Positions 3,837 to 7,329 of a stretch of DNA of 15,854 nt are shown here, one piece after another. How positions within the stretch are numbered: position 1 is the stretch's first letter; the number at the start of each line of letters is the position of its first letter. The stretch comes from Altererythrobacter sp. (GTDB lineage: Bacteria; Pseudomonadota; Alphaproteobacteria; Sphingomonadales; Sphingomonadaceae): NCBI GenBank assembly GCA_023299945.1, contig JALZVZ010000191.1, positions 1 to 15,854 on the forward strand, read 5' to 3'. The notes under the pieces were generated by a model. The model searched no databases. It saw nothing but the letters and a program-made list of their open reading frames with translations, and was not told the DNA's origin. The translations under genes were made by a program, and so were the position numbers.

Positions 3837-3973
3837 AGTTTTCAGCTTTACCGCAAAAGGCACAAAAGGCGCAAATGCTCAGTTTTCGTCAATTTCTCAT
3901 CACTGTGATCGCCGCGCGTGCTTGACTTCGTATCTTGACCATCGCCACAGATACGCTTTGGTTTAACCGGAGT
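3837..3973. promoter_or_regulatory. Divergent intergenic region with an 11-bp palindrome
   Basis: This 137-base gap separates two divergent genes and must hold both promoters. It contains a perfect short palindrome ATCAC-T-GTGAT at 3899-3909 and a tandem CAAAAGGC repeat near 3854-3870. TTGAC hexamers occur at 3922 and 3935 on the plus strand and near 3892 on the minus strand, but none has a convincing -10 partner at 16-18 bases. The palindrome could be an operator. This is weak evidence from symmetry alone. Confidence 0.3.
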
Positions 3974-5137
3974 ATGCAATTGTCTAGCGCTGAAGTGGTG
4001 ATTGAAGCGGTATTTGGCAAGCAGGGCCGCGCCGCCTTTGTTGATTGCGGGCGCGCATTTGCCGCGCGCCTGCCCAATAGCGTCCCGCAATTACGCAGCG
4101 AACTAATGGAATTGGTCGATCCGGATAAGAACCCGTTTTTCGGCCATGCCCGCGCGCAGCTTTTCCTTGCAAAAAGCGGCGGCAAAACCGTTGGGCGCAT
4201 ATCTGCGCATATCGACGAATTGGCGCTGACCATGCCGCCTGAGCAGGGCTTTGGCCCTGGCACTGGCAATTTCGGCTATTTCGATGCTGAGAATGCGAGC
4301 GTTGGCGCAGCCTTGTTGGAAGGGGCGGAAAATTGGCTGCGCGAGCAAGGCATGAGCCGCTCTTTGGGCCCAATATCCCTTTCCATCTGGGAGGAACCTG
4401 GTCTGCTTGTACGCGGGCAAGATCATGCGCCTATGATCATGATGGGCCACCATCCTGCATCCTATCGCGGGTGGATTGAGAGTGCAGGATATACGCCTGC
4501 CAAAACGCTCTTCACCTATGATGTGCCAATCGACAGACCGTTCCCCAAGCTGGTGCAACGGATAGCCAAATCCGGCCAAAAAAATGAGCGTGTGACCGTG
4601 CGCCGCGTCGACAAATCGCGCTGGGACGAGGAGGCGGCCTCGGTTCTGGCGATCCTCAACGACGCGTGGTCTGACAATTGGGGTTTTGTCCCGCTAACTC
4701 CTGAAGAGATTGCATATACGGGTAAAAAGCTGAAACCGATCATTTTTGAACCGATCAATATGATTGCAGAACTGGATGGTGAGCCGGTCGCCTTCATGCT
4801 CACCTTCCCAGACATTAATCACGTGCTGCAGAAGATCGATGGAAAGCTCTTTCCCTTTGGTTGGTTCCATTTGCTGCGCTGGCTGCGCAAGCCCAGCCGA
4901 TCAGGCATGCGTGTGCCTTTGATGGGCGTAAAGAAAGAACTGCACAATTCCCGGCTCGCCAGCCAGCTGGCTTTTATGATGATCAGCGATATTCGCGAAG
5001 CGTCGGTTGCAGAGTTTGATTCAAAACGCGGTGAGCTCGGCTGGATCCTCGATGACAATAAGGGGATGGTCGCGATTGCCAATACGATCGAAAGCACATG
5101 CAACCGCGAATATGTGATCTTTGAAAAAGCCCTTTAG
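3974..5137 (+). CDS. Conserved protein of unknown function, possible GNAT-fold acetyltransferase
   Basis: A 387-residue soluble protein of a type common in Alphaproteobacteria, where I recall relatives being called N-acetyltransferase or, less plausibly, dATP pyrophosphohydrolase. I see no Nudix box, which argues against the second name. The N-terminal half has a pattern (FLAKSGGKTVGRISAH, then GNFGYFDAENASVGAALLEG) that looks like GNAT strands, and the C-terminal half has IAELDGEPVAFMLTFPD, which looks like a second such strand pair. A duplicated GNAT-like fold is therefore a reasonable guess, not a demonstration. No signal peptide or membrane segment is seen. The start is uncertain: the ATG at 3974 is preferred, but a TTG at 3935 is in frame and GGAG lies too close to the ATG to serve as a normal ribosome binding site. 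The gene is followed by a terminator-like hairpin and stands alone. Confidence 0.6.
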   Translation: MQLSSAEVVIEAVFGKQGRAAFVDCGRAFAARLPNSVPQLRSELMELVDPDKNPFFGHARAQLFLAKSGGKTVGRISAHIDELALTMPPEQGFGPGTGNFGYFDAENASVGAALLEGAENWLREQGMSRSLGPISLSIWEEPGLLVRGQDHAPMIMMGHHPASYRGWIESAGYTPAKTLFTYDVPIDRPFPKLVQRIAKSGQKNERVTVRRVDKSRWDEEAASVLAILNDAWSDNWGFVPLTPEEIAYTGKKLKPIIFEPINMIAELDGEPVAFMLTFPDINHVLQKIDGKLFPFGWFHLLRWLRKPSRSGMRVPLMGVKKELHNSRLASQLAFMMISDIREASVAEFDSKRGELGWILDDNKGMVAIANTIESTCNREYVIFEKAL

Positions 5138-5172
5138 CCGCGAAACCCTCCATATCTTTTGATCTCGCGCAG

Positions 5173-5256
5173 AAAAAGGCCCCTGCTCATCAGAGCAAGG
5201 GCCTTAAAATCGTGTCACCAGCCGCTTGGACGGAAGGGGGGCTCGGCGGTGACATT
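5173..5256 (-). ncRNA. Candidate stress-response small RNA, GsrN-like in design
   Basis: Read on the minus strand, this stretch has the layout of a small RNA of about 80-85 bases. A 5' hairpin (5254 to 5213) has an 11-pair stem, UGUCACC-GCCG with CGGC-GGUGACA and one bulged U. Its 19-base loop contains CCCCCCUUCC, which could pair with purine-rich ribosome binding sites. A second hairpin (5205 to 5176) follows after seven bases, with a 13-pair stem, a UGAU loop and then a run of five U. Strand choice is supported twice: the U run lies on the minus side, and the only imperfect pair is a G.U wobble on the minus strand but an A.C mismatch on the plus strand. An EcfG-like promoter lies just upstream. 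The alphaproteobacterial small RNA GsrN has a C-rich 5' loop and an EcfG-family promoter. The resemblance is in design; homology is not shown. Confidence 0.55.
5176..5205 (-). terminator. Strong intrinsic terminator, minus-strand orientation
   Basis: Inverted repeat AAGGCCC-x-TGCTC with a four-base loop and GAGCA-x-GGGCCTT. On the minus strand the stem runs straight into TTTTT (5177 to 5173). On the plus strand the stem is followed by TTAAAAT, a poor U tract, so any termination of the gene ending at 5137 would be weaker. No protein gene on the minus strand ends here, which is why I link it to the candidate small RNA. Confidence 0.75.
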
Positions 5257-5260
5257 AAAA

Positions 5261-5285
5261 AATGCAGAAACCGGCAATCGGTTCC
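5261..5285 (-). promoter_or_regulatory. EcfG-like promoter for the candidate small RNA
   Basis: On the minus strand a GGAAC box (5285 to 5281, preceded by G) is followed after exactly 16 bases by CATT (5264 to 5261). The EcfG-family consensus is GGAAC, 16-17 bases, CGTT, so the -10 box has one mismatch. The spacing equals that of the nepR promoter in this window. A start around 5256-5254 would place the RNA 5' end at the base of the C-rich hairpin. Confidence 0.45.
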
Positions 5286-5493: not shown

Positions 5494-5985
5494 ATGTCGT
5501 TAAGTAACCGTGTTGCAGCGAATTTGCCGTATTTGCGTCGTTATGCGCGCGCACTCACCGGATCGCAGGAAAGCGGCGACACTTTTGTCTGCGCAACATT
5601 GCAGGCTTCCTTAGATAATCCGTCCTTTAAAAACATGCTCGAAGATGGCCGTACGGGCCTCTACCGTGCTTTCACCATTGTCTGGGCACAAACTCACAAG
5701 GATACAGGCGCATCCGGCCCAGACAATGAAACACATGCAACCGCCCACGAAGCGGCGGCGCGAAGACGGCTGAGCGCGATTACGCCGCTGAATCGGCAGG
5801 CATTATTGCTGATGATATTAGAAGAATTTAGCACTGATCAAGCCGCGGAGATCTTGGGGCTACGCAGTGATGAAATCGGCGATCTGGTGCAGGATGCGAT
5901 CGGCGAAATTGATCATGAGTCTGCGACAAATGTTCTGATAATCGAGGATGAACCGCTGCCATATCAAAGACTGGGACCAAAATAA
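5494..5985 (+). pseudogene. phyR: Truncated phyR: sigma-like domain without receiver
   Basis: PhyR is the anti-anti-sigma factor of the alphaproteobacterial general stress response, normally about 260 residues: an EcfG-like domain followed by a receiver domain. Residues 1-140 here give a complete sigma-like domain, with LPYLRRYARALTGS at 11-24 and the region 4-like EEFSTDQAAEILGLRSDEIG at 110-129. The receiver opens normally (TNVLIIEDEPL, 145-155, with the acidic cluster E151-D152-E153) and then stops matching. Eight unrelated residues follow before TAA. The phospho-acceptor Asp and the rest of the receiver are absent, and no other frame downstream restores them. The bases after about 5958 read as antisense of a CHASE domain. 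The retained domain is undamaged and could still bind NepR, so this may be an active fragment and not a dead gene. A sequencing frameshift does not explain it, because the downstream DNA is something else. Confidence 0.85.
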
Positions 5986-6386
5986 GAAAGCCCAAGCCTT
6001 TGCTTTTGGGGCGGTTCGCCGGCTGCAATTTACCCGACGCACTGGGCTTGCCGGTCGTCGCAGCGATATCGATAGCCTCGCGTCGAATGGCTTCTGAATA
6101 GAGGTCAAAACCCAGACTACGCTGATTGCCCTCGCCCGGAAGTTCTAGAAAAACAACAGGCACTTTTATAGCGCCGGGTTTTTCCTGTCTAATGACCTTG
6201 GCCCAGCCAACGCCTTGTGAACCGGCAGAATCATCAGCGGGAGGCAGAGCCTCTACAAAGCTAGCAAAGACTGCTTCATCGACCTCGTCCACCAGTGAAA
6301 ATAGCGTTGCACCGGCACCCAAAAAGGCCAAATGATTGCTAACCCGCCTCTCGCGTCGCCAGATCGGCCGTCTTTTGGGTCATTTT
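5962..6386 (-). pseudogene. CHASE-domain fragment of a sensor histidine kinase
   Basis: On the minus strand a frame from about 6358 to 5964 encodes much of an extracellular CHASE sensor domain. Seen in order are RRVSNHLAFLGAG, FASFVEALPPAD, GSQGVGWAKV, PVVFLELPGEGNQRSLGFDL and TGKPSASGKL, ending in GLGFLILVPVFD. The GN..LGFDL block and the closing GFL..VPV are typical of CHASE. Both ends are missing. No start codon plus first membrane helix precedes it (the frame hits a stop at 6382-6380), and after VFD the frame runs into antisense phyR, so the second membrane helix, dimerisation and ATPase domains are gone. Short ATG-led frames at 6393 and 6383 may be remains of the original N-terminus in shifted frames. 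Such CHASE proteins are often HWE/HisKA_2 kinases, the class that acts on PhyR. The fold call is by pattern, the kinase identity by inference. Confidence 0.65.
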
Positions 6387-6418
6387 GAGTCATCAAATCC
6401 TAACTAGCACTTCAATTG

Positions 6419-6443
6419 GGAACCAATCAGATTTATTGTCGTT
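6419..6443 (+). promoter_or_regulatory. EcfG (general stress sigma) promoter of nepR-ecfG
   Basis: GGAAC at 6419-6423, preceded by G, then exactly 16 bases, then CGTT at 6440-6443. This matches the known EcfG-family consensus at every conserved base. It lies about 85 bases before the nepR ATG, so ecfG is expected to activate its own operon, as is known in other Alphaproteobacteria. Confidence 0.85.
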
Positions 6444-6507
6444 TTTAGGTAGTTGAAAAAGTATAGGTGTTCCCGCCAAGCTGCGGCACTAAGTATAATA
6501 CACCAAT

Positions 6508-6524
6508 TAGGAAAGAACCTCCTA
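6508..6524 (+). promoter_or_regulatory. Small hairpin in the nepR leader that may cover the ribosome binding site
   Basis: TAGGA (6508-6512) and TCCTA (6520-6524) can pair around a seven-base loop, immediately before the nepR ATG at 6529. The only AGGA in the leader is inside the stem. Five pairs is a weak structure and the AGGA lies rather far from the start, so a regulatory role is only a possibility. Confidence 0.25.
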
Positions 6525-6528
6525 GAGC

Positions 6529-6720
6529 ATGGCCAAACAAGGCAAAGATACAGTCCCTTCCAAGAAGAAGGGGGAAAGTCGCCCTTCACCGAAGGAGGCC
6601 CGCGATCCAGACTGGGCCAATGGCCTGCGCCAGCTTTATGATTCCGTAGTCGATGAGCCTCTGCCTGATAGCTTCAAAGATCTTCTCGACAAGCTCGATG
6701 ACGAGAGCAAAAGCACCTAG
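6529..6720 (+). CDS. nepR: Anti-sigma factor NepR
   Basis: A 63-residue protein that binds and inhibits EcfG until PhyR displaces it. The core signature is complete at about residues 31-58: LRQLYDSVVDEPLPDSFKDL followed by LDKLDD, the two helices that wrap around the sigma factor or the sigma-like domain of PhyR. The lysine-rich N-terminus (1-25) is the usual disordered tail. The size is typical for the family. The gene lies behind an EcfG promoter and is followed after six bases by ecfG, so anti-sigma and sigma are made together. The start at 6529 is the first ATG after the promoter; no strong ribosome binding site at normal distance is seen. Confidence 0.95.
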   Translation: MAKQGKDTVPSKKKGESRPSPKEARDPDWANGLRQLYDSVVDEPLPDSFKDLLDKLDDESKST

Positions 6721-6726
6721 CTTGCC

Positions 6727-7329
6727 ATGCCTCAAATCGAACGCACGGCAGCAACACAAGCCGATTTCAAGCGCGAATTGACCGAGGTCATTCCGCATTT
6801 GCGGGCATTTGCACGTGGTCTTTGCGGGCGACCAGATTTAGCCGACGATCTCGTTCAAGAAGCGATGCTGAAGGCATGGGCTGCGCGCGACAGGTTTGAG
6901 CCGGGAACCTCAATGCGTGCTTGGATATTTGTGATCCTTCGCAATGCCTATCTTACCGATATGCGGCGCAATAAATTTCACGGCGATTATGATGAGATCG
7001 TTGCAGAACGCATTCTTACCGCTCCCGCTGGCCAAGAGGAACCGCTTCACCTTTCCGACATGCATCGCGCTCTGCAAACCCTTCCGCCGGAGCGGCGCGA
7101 GGCATTGCTGCTCGTGGGGGCTGGCGGCTTTTCCTATCAAGAGGCAGCGCAAATTTGCGGATGCGCTGTTGGCACGATCAAAAGCCGCGTTGGCCGCGCC
7201 AGAGCCACTATTACGGAAATGCTCGAAGAAGATTCTATTCCAGCTCGCTCTAGCAGCGACAGCGTCGCTCATACTGCAATCCTCGAGGAGCTCGATATTA
7301 TCTCTAACAGGCAGTCAAACCACAATTAG
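6727..7329 (+). CDS. ecfG: General stress response sigma factor EcfG
   Basis: Extracytoplasmic-function sigma factor of the EcfG type, 200 residues, that directs RNA polymerase to GGAAC-N16-CGTT promoters. The sigma-2 region lies at about 20-85, with RPDLADDLVQEAMLKAW at 35-51 and TSMRAWIFVILRNAYLTDMR at 61-80. A linker and the sigma-4 region follow at about 112-162, with LPPERREALLLVGAGGFSYQ and a helix-turn-helix ending GTIKSRVGRAR. Both regions are intact. The start is six bases after the nepR stop and the operon ends at a strong terminator. With PhyR truncated upstream, how EcfG is released from NepR in this strain is the open question of the locus. Confidence 0.95.
   Translation: MPQIERTAATQADFKRELTEVIPHLRAFARGLCGRPDLADDLVQEAMLKAWAARDRFEPGTSMRAWIFVILRNAYLTDMRRNKFHGDYDEIVAERILTAPAGQEEPLHLSDMHRALQTLPPERREALLLVGAGGFSYQEAAQICGCAVGTIKSRVGRARATITEMLEEDSIPARSSSDSVAHTAILEELDIISNRQSNHN

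Follow-up and report, generated by a model that had tools for sequence, protein, structure and literature searches.

Genomic context

The window (the whole stretch of 15,854 nt analyzed here) carries a nepR-ecfG stress locus on its plus strand. An open reading frame without a Pfam match (3935..5137), which we take to encode an acyltransferase-like protein, is followed by the sigma-like part of phyR (5494..5985; PF22029 and PF22233), nepR (6529..6720; PF18557), and ecfG (6727..7329; PF04542 and PF08281), and sodB is also found in this neighborhood. A motif scan located the nepR-ecfG promoter, GGAAC-N16-CGTT, at 6419..6443 on the plus strand, 110 bp before nepR. On the minus strand, a predicted small RNA gene (5285-5173) lies between phyR and the first open reading frame, which is convergent with it; its T-run ends 35 bp beyond the stop codon of this convergent gene.

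The phyR gene of the window is, as read here, truncated. Full-length PhyR proteins of five relatives aligned to the window up to 5958 only, their few weak matches elsewhere falling for the most part on ecfG. Downstream in the window (5494-6528), no receiver domain was found. The distance from 5958 to nepR is 571 bp, versus a median of 2326 bp and a minimum of 927 bp at 56 loci among the matches listed. Because this gap is short compared with those of relatives, a gene between phyR and nepR, presumably encoding a sensor kinase, seems to be absent from the window by loss or misassembly. Since phyR is truncated, PhyR control of the RNA may have been lost in this genome.

Architecture of the minus-strand RNA gene

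The RNA gene begins with an EcfG-type promoter, GGAAC-N16-CATT (5261..5285, minus strand), read directly from the sequence, in which the -35 element GGAAC (5285-5281) and the -10 element CATT (5264-5261) are separated by a 16-nt spacer. A search of both strands of the window for GGAAC-N16-[CT][AG]TT returned two sites, namely this one and that at 6419 on the plus strand ahead of nepR. The predicted small RNA (5173..5256, minus strand), which is based on a match to covariance model R1, would start at about 5256-5252. The match of R1 at 5172-5261 (90.9 bits) was the sole strong one in its own genome.

A 5' hairpin of 11 pairs with one bulged U (5213..5254) was recognized from sequence, folding, and pair counts on the alignments A1 and A3 described below. 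Its left arm is TGTCACCGCCG (5254-5244), and its right arm consists of CGGC (5224-5221), the bulged T (5220), and GGTGACA (5219-5213). The stem encloses a C-rich loop of 19 nt with six C, AGCCCCCCTTCCGTCCAAG (5225..5243; AGCCCCCCUUCCGUCCAAG as RNA), the proposed target-pairing site. A linker of 7 nt, CGATTTT (5206..5212; CGAUUUU as RNA), which is CGAUCCCGA in most A1 relatives, leads to an intrinsic terminator of 13 pairs and five U (5173..5205), identified from sequence, folding, and pair changes in A1. The terminator arms AAGGCCCTTGCTC (5205-5193) and GAGCAGGGGCCTT (5188-5176) flank TGAT and contain a single U-G pair (5198-5183), and the five T occupy 5177-5173. An earlier, sequence-only reading of this DNA had proposed the promoter, an 11-pair hairpin with a C-rich loop, a short linker, and a terminator of 13 pairs, one of them non-canonical, ending in five U; all of these were found on the minus strand, and the bulged T at 5220 is a feature that it had not mentioned.

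The minus strand folds with -41.7 kcal/mol (z -6.1), and none of 200 dinucleotide shuffles was equally stable. The plus strand also folds strongly (z -5.1, 0 of 200 shuffles), so folding alone cannot pick the strand. A scan of the window against Rfam returned no family at gathering score. The evidence that the RNA gene goes beyond chance comes from its conservation.

Conservation, covariation, and strand

BLASTn with a 118-nt stretch gave a match in 21 of 24 other genomes of the same genus, the exceptions being G006, G013, and G020; the RNA of G020 was later found by R1 with 68.6 bits. Outside the genus, one of 16 genomes of other families gave a match (G031, locus L023), which was taken as chance given the lack of locus proteins nearby. 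Alignment A1 consists of 22 sequences including the window and holds only members found by BLASTn, with L023 dropped. Alignment A3 consists of the window and 97 named loci; it was taken from 109 R1 matches, obtained when 99 of the 118 listed named loci and the window were given, by leaving out 10 matches below 30 bits and the truncated locus L130.

GGAAC-N16-CATT precedes the RNA in all 22 A1 sequences, with a spacer of N17 once, and the promoter is kept outside the hairpin core even though most BLAST matches span only this core. Standard pairs make up 98.4% of the 503 paired cells of A1, a share that falls to 28-55% when the partners are slid. Two-sided changes were found in 8 of 23 pairs, a number reached by 3 of 500 shuffles; the covariation score was reached by no shuffle, and the observed value for further pair types by 24 of 500. 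Seven of the eight two-sided pairs lie in the terminator (7 of its 12 counted pairs) and one in the first stem, where covariation is thin, with one two-sided pair in one sequence. Within this limit, both stems put forward by the sequence-only reading are conserved in the relatives aligned.

One pair of the first stem is GU in 13, AU in 6, and GC in 3 of the 22 A1 sequences, and GU in 63, AU in 20, and GC in 15 of the 98 A3 sequences among the matches listed, and is never broken in either set. A GU pair here corresponds to CA when read from the opposite strand, so the minus strand is the RNA strand, which agrees with the strand-specific sign that had been claimed from the wobble pair of the terminator. 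Wobble pairs, together with the lack of a T-run on the plus strand, led to the rejection of an RNA read from that strand.

The loop core is near-invariant in A1, where the non-C part of the loop, CCGUCCA, is conserved to the same degree as the C-run. Loop conservation in A3 is partly circular, as the named scan selected for CCCTYCCGTCCAA, a bias of which A1 and the model search are free. The C-run varies in length from 4 to 7 in A1 and from 5 to 9 in A3, and the ATG of the window at 5255 is absent from most relatives, so the RNA gene is not coding. Judged by these comparisons, the minus strand carries a conserved RNA gene.

Two further features were noticed around the gene. In most members, an A/T tract of the AAAATTTT type, seen by eye, lies shortly ahead of the GGAAC box and is perhaps an UP element. 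In genome G009 (L004, 1392-1472), a long G+C-rich inverted repeat with sub-threshold Rfam microRNA matches adjoins the RNA gene.

Distribution and linkage to phyR

R1 matched 135 of 396 Sphingomonadales genomes with at least 60 bits, all of them in one GTDB family, and reached E-values of 8.7e-4 or worse in other families. A PhyR search of the same genomes gave 289 matches at E<=1e-20, and every one of the 135 genomes has a PhyR match, partial in that of the window; these genomes are related, and the counts are not independent events. Among the 134 genomes with a strong match besides that of the window, 133 have the RNA and phyR on one contig, 130-1567 bp apart (median 223), the RNA always being upstream of phyR and on the opposite strand; in the remaining genome, it is on another contig. 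The position beside the nepR-ecfG stress locus asserted by the earlier reading thus holds within 1.6 kb of phyR in these 133 genomes, and the constant neighbor of the RNA is phyR.

In the genus Erythrobacter (in the GTDB sense), the RNA was present in 39 of 41 other genomes from one draw. Three genomes of this genus (G153, G006, and G013) have neither the RNA nor a PhyR match, and their R1 matches of 20-29 bits were rejected as terminators or coding sequence lacking an EcfG-type promoter and locus proteins. Genome G324 has a full PhyR and no RNA; its convergent gene and phyR are separated by about 170 bp. A named scan yielded at least 118 loci, and the genera among those listed include Erythrobacter, Porphyrobacter, Qipengyuania, Novosphingobium, Croceicoccus, and others. 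All 108 listed named loci showing phyR have the RNA upstream on the opposite strand at 111-1404 bp, and in all 100 in which the convergent gene is visible as well, the RNA lies between the two genes. In 61 of these 100 loci, the convergent gene is more than 500 bp, and up to 2.5 kb, from the promoter end of the RNA, and the RNA is kept. A match in Olivibacter (L118) was taken as chance, having neither phyR nor the convergent gene and no R1 match.

Seven weaker R1 matches (32-45 bits) came from one genus (g29), which is probably Novosphingobium. They are oriented opposite to phyR and lie 168-228 bp upstream of it, a place by which these members were partly recognized. After GGAAC-N16/17, six of their promoters show CGTT and one shows TGTT. 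The stem is retained, as is mostly the linker CCGAUCCC, and the C-runs are longer, for example CCCCCACCCCCCCC. Four other weak matches (L179, L183, L184, and L185) were taken as chance in view of the lack of an EcfG-type promoter, though L185 is near ecfG and phyR.

Other RNAs with C-rich loops near phyR

In about 10.8 kb around phyR in 15 genomes without a strong R1 match, 29 GGAAC-N16/17-C[AG]TT sites were found, nine of which are followed by a hairpin loop with at least six C, versus 19 of 3000 random windows. These nine define a second, unrelated RNA family in other genera (alignment A4; L303, 7841-7946, plus strand, and eight further loci), with two hairpins, the first with a loop of C6-C9 and the second with one of C8-C11. 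A model built from these nine sequences, R2, matched 100 of the 396 Sphingomonadales genomes at E<=1e-6. Among these 100 is a tenth genome from the set of 15 (G070, L306), with AGTT as the -10 element; in the remaining five, no RNA of this kind was seen around phyR. At the ten loci that were read, this twin-C-loop RNA is oriented opposite to phyR and lies about 2 kb upstream of it. Some weak R2 matches (G088, 49 bits; G306) lie off the phyR contig. One member compared with Rfam gave no match at gathering score. The twin-C-loop RNA resembles the window RNA in its EcfG-type promoter, its place on the opposite strand upstream of phyR, and its C-run hairpin loops, but differs in sequence, in having two C-loops, and in its distance from phyR.

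At the thresholds used, R2 and R1 (at least 60 bits) never occurred in one genome (0 of 100). Together, the two families were found in 242 of 289 genomes with PhyR (235 without the seven divergent members) and in none of 107 without PhyR, counts that are uncorrected for relatedness. Neither family was found in 47 PhyR genomes. Among those read, locus L293 (G320) shows an R1-like form by eye, and L294 and L297-L298 showed no C-run hairpin RNA. In genus g34, C-rich hairpins of other sequence (minus strand; L296 1676, L295 1802, and L300 1842), located upstream of phyR in the opposite orientation, are preceded by a GGAAC..CGTT promoter. Locus L205 of genus g24 (1460-1310, minus strand) has an EcfG-type promoter just downstream of phyR, an eight-C loop, and a strong terminator; R1 gave this RNA 19.7 bits, no more than neighboring chance matches.

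Relation to GsrN and other known RNAs

GsrN, encoded by ccna_R0081 of Caulobacter crescentus, pairs with katG mRNA, as described in PMC5869019. In the same paper, GsrN-like genes outside Caulobacteraceae were surveyed by an EcfG promoter, locus proximity, and intergenic transcription. The window RNA is like GsrN in its EcfG-type promoter, stress-regulator neighborhood, exposed C-run in the 5' hairpin, intrinsic terminator, and similar size; a place near stress regulators is typical of GsrN in Caulobacteraceae, but not in C. crescentus itself. The promoter and locus proximity by which, along with intergenic transcription, GsrN homologues were predicted in Rhizobiaceae (PMC5869019) are also seen for the predicted window RNA. 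In contrast, the window RNA is a simple stem-loop, whereas the probable gsrN genes that we found carry an inner hairpin, and the loop of its family, CCCCCCUYCCGUCCAAG, differs from that of GsrN, CGCCCCCCCGAC.

These probable gsrN genes come from family f70, where RNAs just downstream of phyR have a loop, GACGCCCCCCCGAC, complementary to GUCGGGGG-type GsrN target sites given in PMC5869019. Because of this complementarity, and by their position, the f70 RNAs are probably gsrN and f70 is probably Caulobacteraceae. Of the 27 class loci that were scanned (L266-L292), just these two gave a clear gsrN-like case, and three other flagged promoters lie in L272 and L273 or lack a convincing hairpin. With filters off, R1 gave no match over the probable gsrN 5' hairpin in L267 and L268, its scores of 11.4 and 8.1 bits falling at terminators. 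The claim of a GsrN-like RNA made by the earlier reading is therefore retained for the promoter, the proximity to phyR, and the C-rich 5' loop; the RNA appears GsrN-like by anatomy, and homology to GsrN is unsupported.

The Caulobacter sRNA CC1840 (RF01521) is a lead only. Its whole model aligns, with 19.0 bits for the window and 30.7 bits for a relative (L131), but these scores are below the gathering score of 50, and the same search gave unrelated families better E-values. RF01521 itself matched only Caulobacter vibrioides among 14 controls and none of 289 class genomes. Relaxed Rfam matches were rejected as being below gathering score and mixed with clear chance families. In the open-licence literature, no paper was found that reports the window RNA in its title or the start of its abstract.

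Target searches

In the genome of the window, the loop complement GGACGGRAGGG is found at the RNA gene and nowhere else. In 25 genomes, it occurred 45 times, many of these being the RNA gene itself, versus 79 times for a reversed control. Pairing of the loop with upstream regions, rather than mapped mRNA leaders, at 18 of 24 katG-family loci gave z of -0.65 to 1.24 against mononucleotide shuffles, with a simple start-codon rule that is wrong for some, and the upstream region of the genome's own katG (L255) gave z -0.28 against such shuffles. The leaders of phyR, nepR, ecfG, and sodB likewise paired no better than shuffles. The proposed pairing of the loop with upstream or leader regions found no support in these comparisons for any of the five genes.

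Of the 18 katG-family upstream regions, 11 share a motif ATTGGAC, often as ATCGATTGGAC, which at L255 stands about 90-100 bp ahead of the gene and may be a regulator site that overlaps a -35 box. As a target (it contains the loop complement UUGGAC), this motif was rejected, since by eye it resembles a promoter -35 element and would then lie outside the mRNA.

Proposed function and alternatives

The promoter, hairpins, terminator, conservation at the RNA level, and linkage to phyR are read from the sequences, and the prediction of an EcfG-driven small RNA is well supported. We consider it probable that it is a stand-alone RNA acting in trans, with its C-loop pairing with several mRNAs. Upon release of EcfG from NepR by PhyR, EcfG would transcribe an RNA of about 80-84 nt away from phyR, which would end at its own terminator. 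The stem would hold the 19-nt C-rich loop open, and the loop would most likely pair with G-rich stretches of several mRNAs, by analogy with GsrN, possibly using Hfq. Such pairing may alter the translation or stability of the mRNAs, as GsrN does in Caulobacter.

Two alternatives accept the RNA and differ in its partner or its sigma factor. The C-run could bind or titrate a protein, the surrounding sequence mattering little; the different-sequence RNAs that share a promoter type and C-run hairpin loops at the phyR locus of other genera are consistent with this, as is the failure to find an mRNA target for the loop. We regard it as rather improbable, because the invariance of CCGUCCA in A1, equal to that of the C-run, suggests sequence-specific pairing, and GsrN pairs with katG (PMC5869019). 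It is also unlikely that another ECF or the housekeeping sigma factor drives a small RNA by phyR that is not part of the general stress response. The -10 element CATT instead of CGTT would fit this, but CATT also occurs in one probable f70 gsrN, CGTT follows the same GGAAC and spacing at the nepR promoter and in six of the seven divergent members, and PhyR is present in every genome that has the RNA at 60 bits or above.

Two others do without a non-coding RNA. The short distance between the T-run and the convergent stop codon would suit a mere gene end, a bidirectional terminator beside a chance hairpin; this is very unlikely given that the plus strand has no T-run after the hairpin, the loop is conserved like the stems, all 22 A1 sequences retain the promoter, and the RNA persists where the convergent gene is more than 500 bp away (61 of 100 listed loci). 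A short coding sequence of 21 codons from the ATG at 5255, a frame that is open in the window by eye, is extremely unlikely, as most relatives lack the ATG, the C-run length shifts the frame, and the pair changes are two-sided.

Tentatively, and with considerable doubt, we suggest that a phyR-linked small RNA is a usual part of the general stress response in Sphingomonadaceae and has been repeatedly replaced or rewritten, the C-run loop itself being selected. If so, at least two unrelated families, along with further forms in other genera, would have in common no more than their EcfG-type promoter, their position upstream of phyR, and their C-run hairpin loops, and the C-run would act on a general partner, such as G-rich leaders at large or a protein, and not on a fixed target. 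The GsrN-like survey names Erythrobacter litoralis as being without an apparent gsrN-like gene (Figure 9 legend of PMC5869019), and the RNA described here is present in 39 of 41 other Erythrobacter genomes in one draw. This gives many loci at which to test whether the general stress response of Alphaproteobacteria has a C-loop RNA among its standard outputs.
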